A DNA stretch of 64,000 bases from Alphaproteobacteria bacterium (GTDB lineage: Bacteria; Pseudomonadota; Alphaproteobacteria; Thalassobaculales; Thalassobaculaceae): contig JANSYS010000016.1 of NCBI GenBank assembly GCA_024742275.1, positions 1 to 64,000 on the forward strand. The letters are read 5' to 3'. The notes below the pieces were generated by a model. The model worked only from the letters and a program-made list of their open reading frames with translations, was not told the origin of the DNA and ran no database searches. Numbering within the stretch: position 1 is the first letter of the stretch; every line of letters begins with the position of its first letter. The translations under genes were made by a program, and so were the position numbers. This document shows, piece by piece, positions 14,201 through 62,073 of the stretch.

Positions 14201-14602
14201 TCAGGCGGCGCTGGTATCGCGCTCTCGCGATGTCGTATAGGCCACGGCGCAGTGCTGGGAGCAGTAAGGGCGTCCCGGTTCCACGGTCGAGCCGCAGAAG
14301 CTGAAGTTGTCGGTCTTCGGATCGCCGATCGGCCAGGAGCAGGTGTTGCGGTCCCATTGCTCCAGGGTCAGGGGCACGGCGCGGCGGCGCTGGATCGGCC
14401 GTTCGTCGCGCTTCGGGTTGGCGCTGCGCACGATCGGCGACTGGCGCTTCGGCAAACCCATGCGGTGGACCTTGCCGACCACCGCGTTGCGCGAAACGCC
14501 GAGCTTAAGCCCGATCTGCGTGATCGACAGCCCTTCGCCCCAGAGCGCCTTCAGTTGCTCCAAACGCTCTTCGTCCCAAACGCTCTGCGAATTGTCGCCC
14601 AT
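14201..14602 (-). CDS. gcrA: GcrA cell cycle regulator
   Basis: A 133-residue alphaproteobacterial transcription factor. It binds GANTC sites methylated by CcrM together with sigma-70 and controls cell-cycle genes. The N-terminal helix-turn-helix is clear (WDEERLEQLKALWGEGL, then LGVSRNAVVGKVHRMGLPKR), and the C-terminal sigma-interacting part keeps the Cys/His pattern (TCSWPIGDP, FCGSTV, YCSQHC). The ATG at 14602 has a perfect AGGAGG a few bases upstream, so the longer frame to 14635 is rejected. Its upstream region is itself full of GANTC sites. Confidence 0.95.
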   Translation of the reverse strand: MGDNSQSVWDEERLEQLKALWGEGLSITQIGLKLGVSRNAVVGKVHRMGLPKRQSPIVRSANPKRDERPIQRRRAVPLTLEQWDRNTCSWPIGDPKTDNFSFCGSTVEPGRPYCSQHCAVAYTTSRERDTSAA

Positions 14603-14645
14603 TCTTGCCTCCTTGCCGGCCGGATCGGGGCGCACCGGTCGACCC

Positions 14646-14856
14646 GACTCGCCGCACCCATATTTAGTGGCTAACGATCAAGAGGCTACGGGATGTGGGG
14701 TGGCGCCACAAGCGCCATAGCCACATCTCGCATAGAATGTTGTGGATAACACAAGAAGTTGTTGATTCGCCGCGACTCGCGATGGAGCCGGGCGTCGCCC
14801 CAACCGGACCGGATTCGGGAATCGCCGGCCGAATCTCCCTTTTCGATTCCTGAATC
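14646..14856. promoter_or_regulatory. gcrA upstream region: eight GANTC sites and a consensus DnaA box
   Basis: GANTC, the CcrM methylation site, occurs at 14646, 14764, 14774, 14812, 14819, 14831, 14845 and 14852; seven of them lie within 93 bases. A perfect DnaA box (TTATCCACA on the minus strand) is at 14741-14749. The 329-base stretch 14603-14931 holds no convincing gene. An inverted repeat TTAG/CTAA at 14664-14674 lies nearer the gene. The combination suggests methylation- and DnaA-responsive control of gcrA. Confidence 0.65.
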
Positions 14857-14931
14857 GTCCGGTTACTTGGTTCCGGCGAGCGGAGACCCACAGGCCGAAT
14901 ATTCCGATGAGAGCCGGGCCCGGCGCGCCGG

Positions 14932-15891
14932 TCAGCCGAGGCCCACCGCCACTTTCGGTGCCGCGAGCCGGCGGTTCCGTTCGCGGATCAGATAGTCGAC
15001 CAGGGCCTGGGGAGCCGAGACGCCGGCGGCGGCTTCGGCGTCCGGGTTGTAGTTGGTGTTCGTGTTGACGTCGTAGACGAAGGGCCGCCCCTCCGCGTCG
15101 CGGGCGAACTCGACCCCGGCGATGTCGATCCCCGACGCCGCAAGGAACCGCTCGATCGCGGCCTCCAGGCTTGGCTCAAGCGCGTTGTTGACCACGGTAA
15201 AGACCGGACCGCCGGTCTCTTCAGCCTCGTCCGGCGCGCAAACGTCGGCCGGGCAGAGCTCGAACGTGCCGCCGGTGTCGATGCGCACGGCGTAGAACAG
15301 CTTGCCGCCGATGAACTCGGCCCGGGTGACGCTGCCGTCGGCGGTGGCAACATAGTCCTGAAGCAGGGTGATCCCGTCGATCGATCCTTGCAGGGTACCG
15401 GCGGCGGCGCGCTCCACAACCTCCCGGGCGTCTTCGAACAGCTGTATGCCGAGCCCCTTCCCGCCCCGGTTCGGCTTCACGATCACAGGCCCGCTCCCCC
15501 AGAGCTTGGCCGCTTCGGCGACCTTGGCATCGCCCAGGGCCGCGACGGTACGCGGGACGGGAACGCCGGCGCGCTTCAGACCCGCAAGCTGGGCAGCCTT
15601 GTTGACCTCGAGGGAGATCGCGCCGGCACCGTTGATCACCGGACGACCATGGGCTTCCAGCCAGGCGATGACGGCGGCTGCGTATTCCGGCGAGTAGCGA
15701 TGACCGCGGGTGTGGGCCGACGCGCTCATCCGGTTGTAGAACAGGCCCGCCGGAGGCTCGGCGGCGAGGTCGATGGCGCCGTCCGAGAGATCGAGATCAA
15801 CGAAAGCCTCGCCGCGTGCCTCGAAAGCGCGCGCGAAGGGTGGAAGCCATTCCGGATTCTCGTGGATCACATGGATCGGCTGATCAGTCAT
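14932..15891 (-). CDS. ATP-grasp domain protein, RimK/LysX-like ligase
   Basis: A 319-residue protein of the ATP-grasp superfamily, whose members join a carboxylate to an amine or thiol through an acyl phosphate. The N-terminal part is a pre-ATP-grasp domain (FYNRMSASAHTRGH). The ATP-grasp core contains PVIVKPNRGGKGLGIQLF (glycine-rich loop and ATP lysine) and ends with the metal ligands in GVEFARD and VYDVNTNTNYN. RimK-like enzymes add amino acids to proteins or make small peptides. No carrier protein or biosynthetic partner is adjacent, so the substrate is unknown. Confidence 0.85.
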   Translation of the reverse strand: MTDQPIHVIHENPEWLPPFARAFEARGEAFVDLDLSDGAIDLAAEPPAGLFYNRMSASAHTRGHRYSPEYAAAVIAWLEAHGRPVINGAGAISLEVNKAAQLAGLKRAGVPVPRTVAALGDAKVAEAAKLWGSGPVIVKPNRGGKGLGIQLFEDAREVVERAAAGTLQGSIDGITLLQDYVATADGSVTRAEFIGGKLFYAVRIDTGGTFELCPADVCAPDEAEETGGPVFTVVNNALEPSLEAAIERFLAASGIDIAGVEFARDAEGRPFVYDVNTNTNYNPDAEAAAGVSAPQALVDYLIRERNRRLAAPKVAVGLG

Positions 15892-45736: not shown

Positions 45737-45880
45737 CACGCCCTCCTGATCACGAATCGTCCGCATTGAATCATGAGCGGAATCAAGGGTCACCGTGAAC
45801 AGAACGCGAATCGAAGGGCTGCAGGGCGCGAATCCGGGGAACGTGTTGCAGAAATGACTCAGCCGACGCGCCGGGCGGCG

Positions 45881-61764: not shown

Positions 61765-62073
61765 TTAGTCCCCCGAGTCTCGGTTGATCCGATTCTTCAA
61801 AACGTGCGAAGGACGGAAAACCAGCACGCGACGCGGCAGGATGGGGACCTCTTCTCCGGTCTTCGGATTCCGTCCGATTCTCTTGCCCTTCTGCCGGACC
61901 GAGAAGCTGCCGAACGAGGAGATCTTCACCATCTCTCCCCGTACAAGCGCGCCAATCATTTCATCAAGAACCGACTCGACGAGATCCGCCGATTCGTTCC
62001 GGGAAAGCCCAACTTCCTGGTAGACGGCCTCGCTCAGATGAGCGCGGGTGATCGTTTCGCCGGCCATACGCAC
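61765..62073 (-). CDS. ihfA: Integration host factor subunit alpha
   Basis: A 102-residue DNA-bending protein of the HU/IHF family. The N-terminus [33 protein letters not shown] and the beta-arm region [22 protein letters not shown] are typical. The heterodimer with IhfB bends DNA in recombination, replication and sigma-54 transcription, which is relevant for the NtrC system here. It is preceded by its own candidate promoter. Confidence 0.96.

Follow-up and report, generated by a model that had tools for sequence, protein, structure and literature searches.

GcrA and the methylase CcrM form a core epigenetic cell-cycle module of Alphaproteobacteria. Control of the gcrA gene itself has been described in few species, and the accessible portions of the literature name Caulobacter, Agrobacterium, and Sinorhizobium (in the last case through a small RNA). 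The closest described system is gcrA of Agrobacterium tumefaciens, where six sites for CcrM (GANTC) lie in the 250 bp upstream of the gene, far above the chromosome average; CcrM methylation lowers the activity of the promoter, in A. tumefaciens as well as in E. coli, and the proposed model is that passage of the replication fork releases the promoter (PMC11514494). At gcrA of Caulobacter crescentus, one DnaA box is present and DnaA acts as an activator (PMC3193534). The accessible text of Brilli et al. (2010) reports no significant DnaA motif at Caulobacter gcrA and predicts one in Hyphomonas neptunium and Maricaulis maris (PMC2877005).

GANTC is also found at other cell-cycle promoters. At Caulobacter mipZ, ctrA P1, and ftsZ it is read via methylation (PMC3667746, PMC8116508), with two sites at mipZ and one at ctrA P1, and ctrA promoter regions of Sphingomonadales and Caulobacterales contain up to five or six sites in 300 bp (PMC8116508). 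One class of Caulobacter promoters has GANTC between the -10 and -35 elements; start sites whose GANTC falls outside the -35 to -10 region, at most 50 bp upstream, make up another class, with its minimum at 40-60 minutes (PMC4287350). The latter class is only a pointer for the locus described here, because most of its GANTC sites lie further out.

The gcrA gene studied here resembles that of A. tumefaciens in having a GANTC cluster directly upstream and differs from it in density and arrangement, with seven sites in 93 bp, partly as palindromic pairs, against six in 250 bp; a perfect DnaA box whose distance to the candidate promoter is fixed comes in addition. This comparison is by description only. 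A single DnaA box is shared with C. crescentus gcrA, again compared by description only. Like mipZ, ctrA P1, and ftsZ, it has GANTC at a cell-cycle promoter, in this case many sites, and the core is free of them in all but one candidate promoter of the family. The first-pass annotation had held the cluster to be denser than the one or few sites at known Caulobacter cell-cycle promoters; the Agrobacterium gcrA and ctrA counts call for a qualification here. Given the published precedent at Agrobacterium gcrA, the array is of a kind already known, and the region is best seen as a variant of the known CcrM-sensitive, DnaA-linked gcrA promoter. For the host family, the open-licence literature yielded no publication on a Thalassobaculum methylome or on Nisaea gcrA and no matching title on gcrA control; in its accessible text, Thalassobaculum and gcrA were found together only in work on Caulobacter CdnL.

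The gcrA upstream region and its GANTC array

The window, the whole stretch of DNA that was analyzed, is 64,000 nucleotides long and encodes gcrA on its minus strand. The protein scores well above the cut-off of 26.9 bits in a profile search with PF07750 and matches it in two stretches (profile positions 3-73 and 102-152 of 155), which cover both the N-terminal DNA-binding part and the C-terminal sigma-interacting part. The position of the start codon is kept among relatives. The upstream neighbor, an ATP-grasp (RimK-like) gene that is likewise on the minus strand, has its end at 14932, and the whole GANTC cluster lies inside the 329-bp intergenic region between the two genes. The features of the locus are as follows.

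14201..14602, minus strand: gcrA coding sequence, 133 aa, ATG at 14602, stop at 14201-14203; PF07750, 122.4 bits
14608..14614, minus strand: likely ribosome binding site AAGGAGG, at -12 from the ATG
14646..14650, minus strand: GANTC (GAGTC) in the putative 5' leader, at -48 from the ATG; a block of invariant alignment columns in 10/10 type A genomes
14683..14688, minus strand: candidate -10 element TAGCCT, identical in 10/10 type A genomes
14692..14698, minus strand: second arm of a dyad, CCACATC, overlapping the promoter spacer (from pair counts)
14706..14711, minus strand: candidate -35 element TTGTGG, 17-nt spacer to the -10 element, at -109 from the ATG
14721..14727, minus strand: first arm of the dyad, GATGTGG (from pair counts)
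14741..14749, minus strand (gcrA strand): DnaA box TTATCCACA, starting 38 nt upstream of the candidate -35 element, at -147 from the ATG
14764..14778, minus strand: GANTC pair (14764, 14774), 10 bp apart, 57 and 67 nt upstream of the -35 element
14812..14823, no strand: palindromic GANTC pair GATTC-GG-GAATC
14831..14835, no strand: lone GANTC between both palindromic pairs
14845..14856, no strand: palindromic GANTC pair GATTC-CT-GAATC, with equal 7-bp spacing in relatives G002 and G004

The GANTC sites start at 14646, 14764, 14774, 14812, 14819, 14831, 14845, and 14852, that is, from far to near, at -254, -247, -233, -221, -214, -176, -166, and -48 from the ATG. All eight sites that the first-pass annotation had listed in 14646-14856, seven of them in the 93 bp of 14764-14856, are present, as is the perfect DnaA box at 14741-14749, between the upstream cluster and gcrA. 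This box is the sole exact one in the window.

We compared the cluster with a genome sample of 2,350,305 bases (the window plus 140 further stretches), which is about half of the 4,690,577-base assembly. The sample contains 4,964 GANTC sites, or one per 473 bases; the annotation had expected about one per 300 by chance, which is roughly what base composition gives, but the measured rate is lower. Within the window, 129 sites were observed against 377 expected from dinucleotide shuffles, a deficit in line with the GANTC depletion reported for CcrM-bearing genomes (PMC3973325). Against this background, the gcrA cluster is the densest in the sampled 2.35 Mb, with seven sites per 100 bp. No other 100-bp span in the sample exceeds five sites and no other 211-bp span exceeds seven, a value reached on a repeat-rich, cassette-like contig. 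The comparison of GANTC density with the genome, proposed along with the annotation, thus left the gcrA region unmatched in the sampled 2.35 Mb. When the 329-bp region was shuffled (dinucleotide, n = 20,000), eight sites were reached in 4/20,000 shuffles and seven sites in 93 bp in 0/20,000. Exact DnaA boxes number eight in the sample, counted on both strands.

The sample contains 20 separate spans with at least four GANTC sites: gcrA with seven, one span with five, and 18 with four, six of which are on a single 9.3-kb contig (C50). Several four-site spans fall inside called reading frames with no evident cell-cycle role, so small GANTC clusters alone mean little. Contig C50 (L080 1-9307) has 77 GANTC sites in 9.3 kb and looks like an integron gene-cassette array: a 71-nt repeat occurs in it eleven times, every 529-1184 bp, with short open reading frames in between. 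In the window, six GANTC sites in 221 bp (61775-61995) surround a minus-strand gene, which by eye we take to resemble a subunit of integration host factor. Another six in 107 bp (45754-45860) immediately precede a minus-strand gene, 45383 to about 45736, whose product is FtsB/DivIC-like (PF04977, 39.4 bits). Part of this stretch, 45768-45860, is the five-site 100-bp span, the second densest in the sampled 2.35 Mb; it is located upstream of the FtsB-like gene, or partly inside it if a longer start is used. A probable ccrM leader contains four GANTC sites within 57 bp where the reading frame begins (L148 6247-6303, near 346.3 kb of contig C48), and these four precede the part that encodes the methylase domain. 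Because clusters are seen also at the ccrM leader and the FtsB-like gene, they may flag genes of the GcrA/CcrM module.

The candidate promoter is a consensus call. The pattern TTGN3-N16-18-TAN3T is found in 29/30 upstream regions of the family (G032 being the exception), although its placement is not always aligned and in a few loci, such as G013, the match is probably a chance one; a stricter promoter scan of 14500-15000 called none. Among the 29 candidate promoters, one GANTC site (in G017) overlaps the core, against 64 sites located 5-120 nt upstream; the core of the host genome's own candidate promoter has no such site. As far as the promoter call goes, the region therefore does not have the GcrA-activated core promoter of the Caulobacter type, in which GANTC lies in or overlaps the -35 to -10 region.

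A dyad, GATNTGG...CCANATC, flanks the candidate -35 element in type A genomes (14692-14727 in the window) and changes in a coordinated manner between relatives. In these genomes 85.7% of 70 cells are paired, 10/70 are unpaired, and seven have changed on both sides, the most among 3,949 arm pairs, with neighboring registers of the same helix tying; three other arm pairs exceed it in paired share. Its covariation score was reached in 0/500 shuffles, but the number of pairs with a double change (two) was reached in 297/500 and is ordinary. Possible explanations of the dyad are an operator, a cruciform, drift among related sequences, or, should transcription start further upstream, a leader hairpin.

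Candidate gcrA promoter types in the family

The host genome is Thalassobaculum-like: its named relatives place it near Thalassobaculum, with GcrA 92% identical to that of T. litoreum and 96% identical to that of a Thalassobaculaceae assembly (among the best 80 of 96 relatives). Our family set comprised 36 genomes. GcrA was matched in 31 of them, and all their upstream regions but that of G031, 30 in total, were read; among the 36, no match was found in G001 and G005 (host genus, 1.5 Mb each), G011, G015, and G035. Half of the upstream regions (15/30) have no perfect DnaA box, and three groups can be told apart.

Type A consists of 10 genomes (the host genus, g3, g5, and g6), grouped partly by the presence of the DnaA box, and has 3 to 8 GANTC sites in 300 bp. 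Within the host genus, gcrA was found in four of six genomes, with 8, 6, 7, and 7 sites; the other type A genomes have 5-6 (G018, G009, G010) or 3-4 (G007, G038, G043). All ten have GANTC 57-58 nt upstream of the -35 element and 8/10 have it at 66-68 nt; they also share the leader GANTC, and the far cluster is variable. Type B, also of 10 genomes (g2, g4, g7, g11, and g12, where the label "Nisaea-like" for g2 was inferred from site patterns equal to those of L161-L162), has no perfect DnaA box and 2 to 7 GANTC sites in 300 bp. These are located 8-9 nt (7/10), 26-27 nt (9/10), and 35-37 nt (7/10) from the -35 element, with further sites at 47 and 57 nt in 2/10 and others at 14, 70, 79, 110 nt, and beyond. 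The third group, nine AT-rich genomes of g8 and g9 and G014 of g10, has none or one; the five g8 genomes have the DnaA box, and the four g9 genomes and G014 do not.

The GANTC cluster is thus kept in all four gcrA-bearing genomes of the host genus, in agreement with the conservation that the annotation had called for, but it is missing in nine AT-rich members of the family, and GC-rich members outside the host genus have fewer or shifted sites. As a control for specificity, we counted 16 symmetric pentamers in the gcrA upstream regions, with the rates of the host genome applied to all groups. In type A (n = 10), GANTC is the most over-represented pentamer (5.40 vs. 0.63 per 300 bp), followed by TGNCA (1.90 vs. 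0.59). GANTC also has the top ratio in type B (3.60 vs. 0.63; runner-up AANTT, 1.60 vs. 0.44), and in the third group, where A/T words are raised, it is not (0.50). Chance or generic enrichment as the source of the gcrA cluster is ruled out by the genome sample, the shuffles, and these pentamer controls; the array is a real, apparently selected feature.

In the host genome, a ccrM-type open reading frame on contig C48 encodes both an N6_N4_Mtase domain (PF01555, 219.5 bits) and a RAMA domain (PF18755, 62 bits), with GANTC as its putative specificity. A RAMA-type methylase gene was found in 28/36 family genomes: in 10/10 of type A, in 8/10 of type B (the two genomes without it are 69-70% complete), and in 7/9 of the AT-rich genomes read. 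These AT-rich relatives can thus do without the array, as they have ccrM but no cluster. In genus g10 the RAMA domain was matched in 0/2 genomes (95-96% complete), and the one g10 gcrA upstream region read (G014) has only one GANTC, at -6, which is a single comparison but in line with a role of methylation.

The DnaA box is fixed relative to the candidate promoter. It starts exactly 38 nt upstream of the -35 element in 10/10 type A genomes, which are GC-rich, and 48 nt upstream of it in 5/5 g8 genomes, which are AT-rich. A spacing of 38 nt that is fixed across ten otherwise changing sequences fits an activator that touches polymerase.

We also examined named loci, the best 80 of 96 relatives retrieved with two peptide patterns, which were split into family (L152-L175) and outside (L176-L231) by the drop in GcrA identity (at least 58% vs. 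at most 49%) rather than by taxonomy. These loci overlap in species with the genome set (L153 of T. litoreum has the pattern of G002), and the two sets were not summed. At least three GANTC sites in 300 bp were seen in 13/24 family loci and in 1/56 outside loci, and a perfect DnaA box in either orientation in 13/24 and 32/56, respectively; some outside loci have a poorly placed start codon (e.g., L177, L183, L195, L211, and L226), and L218 has only 183 bp of upstream sequence. A DnaA box at gcrA is therefore widespread, whereas the GANTC cluster is confined to part of one family. Class-wide, gcrA was found in 125/192 genomes, with GANTC counts limited to the fetched loci.

Where a TTG...TA promoter can be called, the boxes outside the family prefer a small number of distances from it. 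Our distance survey covered 44 box-bearing entries (including G000, G003, and G004, with reverse-orientation boxes left out); a promoter could be called in 37/44, and seven had no call. The distance from the box to the called -35 element across orders was 17 nt (7 loci), 25 nt (1), 27-29 nt (11), 38 nt (11), 40-41 nt (2), or 48 nt (5). For L163 and L223 one of two promoter calls was picked, and for L227 the last of two boxes was used. A Rayleigh test on the distance from the box to the -10 element at a period of 10.5 bp gave p = 0.003 for 12 lineages and p = 0.046 for nine, with lineages delimited by eye, and for the nine lineages periods of 11-12 bp fit equally well or better. Because the test was post hoc, the evidence that the DnaA box is helically phased across orders is suggestive only.

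Candidate control of gcrA and competing explanations

We favor, at a probability of about 0.52, a DnaA-activated gcrA promoter whose output is gated by CcrM target sites arrayed upstream, a reading drawn from sequence comparison and from analogy with the described systems. According to it, gcrA would be transcribed from a sigma70-type promoter, candidate TTGTGG-N17-TAGCCT, and DnaA would probably activate it from the box fixed 38 nt upstream of the -35 element. CcrM would methylate the seven upstream GANTC sites, passage of the replication fork would render all seven hemi-methylated together, and this change would alter gcrA transcription. By the Agrobacterium example, the expected sign is that full methylation holds the promoter down and hemi-methylation releases it. 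In this manner, gcrA may sense whether its own DNA was just copied.

The first-pass annotation had proposed a feedback loop of GcrA, CcrM methylation, and DnaA on gcrA. On the one hand, the sites exceed chance and persist in close relatives, the genome has a ccrM-type gene, and the box fits DnaA control as in Caulobacter. On the other hand, the part assigned to GcrA fares less well, as GANTC in the core promoter is seen in 1/29 family promoters, unlike in the Caulobacter -10/-35 class. Several observations also weigh against the gated promoter as such. The nine AT-rich relatives have gcrA with no or one GANTC, yet 7/9 carry the RAMA-type gene; the promoter is a consensus call on which the stricter scan is silent; and the sites move between genera.

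A further point is the position of gcrA on the chromosome. The host assembly is in 88 contigs, and the distance between gcrA and the origin was taken from two relatives in which gcrA shares a contig with hemE, mnmG, and dnaA, which we take to mark the origin. In the single contig of G039, of about 4.7 Mb, gcrA is located at 0.20 Mb and the three markers are at 2.27-2.39 Mb, 2.1-2.2 Mb away; in G004, gcrA is at 3.92 Mb and the markers are at 0.90-1.06 Mb, 2.9-3.0 Mb apart along the contig. The ccrM gene is near the markers in both (2.42 Mb in G039 and 1.01 Mb in G004). In these two relatives, gcrA is thus probably far from the origin and ccrM near it. As for the markers, the accessible text of a published survey describes dnaA in Rhodospirillales as not conserved near ori and finds no conserved position for the genes examined there, except parAB and clpX (PMC8116508). 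Agrobacterium gcrA, by contrast, is about 0.43 Mb from ori1, a difference that also counts against the gated promoter. Given the distance of gcrA from the origin markers, its hemi-methylation would come late in replication.

Autoregulation is a possible, if doubtful, alternative to the gated promoter: GcrA bound to methylated GANTC would recruit sigma70-RNA polymerase to the gcrA promoter or block it there. GANTC methylation improves DNA binding by the GcrA proteins of Caulobacter, Brucella, and Sinorhizobium (PMC3667746), and the type B sites 8-9 nt (7/10) and 26-27 nt (9/10) from the -35 element would bring polymerase within reach. However, Caulobacter GcrA is a sigma2-binding cofactor (PMC7403470), and the near absence of GANTC from the core promoter (1/29) speaks against a simple GcrA-sigma70 mode of activation like that in Caulobacter. 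In type A, moreover, the nearest upstream GANTC is 57-58 nt from the -35 element, and phrase searches in the main text of two GcrA papers yielded nothing on the gcrA promoter.

We consider unlikely a more elaborate version in which gcrA has two interchangeable upstream inputs and its many GANTC sites jointly form a low-noise sensor of fork passage at a locus distant from the origin, with GcrA output tied to the end and not to the start of replication. In type A, the DnaA box would keep a constant helical distance and the GANTC array would lie behind the box. Type B would have lost the perfect box and moved GANTC beside the -35 element in steps of about 10 bp (8-9, 26-27, 35-37, 47, and 57 nt).

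It is improbable that the GANTC sites are occluded by another protein and remain locally unmethylated, marking a region of binding rather than sensing the fork. Local GANTC hypomethylation in alphaproteobacteria has been published (PMC5172544), and dense palindromic pairs could be protein sites, but no candidate protein or motif was found for the region. Furthermore, the sites change position between genera yet stay GANTC, which points to the methylation motif itself.

A role of the palindromes in RNA or DNA structure (a terminator of the ATP-grasp gene or a hairpin), with GANTC incidental, is very improbable. The stretch 14790-14880 folds somewhat better than its shuffles (z of -1.91 and -2.05; 10 and 5 of 200 shuffles match), but this gain is modest, no terminator-like site was found in 14500-15000, there was no Rfam match up to an E value of 1, and relatives without the palindromic pairs still carry GANTC; we therefore rejected a terminator or RNA element. 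Hardly credible at all is a titration site for DnaA or GcrA, which the annotation had also offered: dense GANTC next to a DnaA box might suggest it, but a datA-like DnaA titration site is a cluster of several DnaA boxes, the window contains a single exact one (exact boxes being what was scanned), and eight GANTC sites are few against roughly 9,900 expected genome-wide (one per 473 in 4.69 Mb).

The lineage itself forms a natural series: some members have the DnaA box together with the array, some have the array without a perfect box, and some have the box without the array. Comparing such members could separate the contributions of the individual inputs, and Thalassobaculum litoreum (DSM 18839), which is in culture, is one candidate for this.
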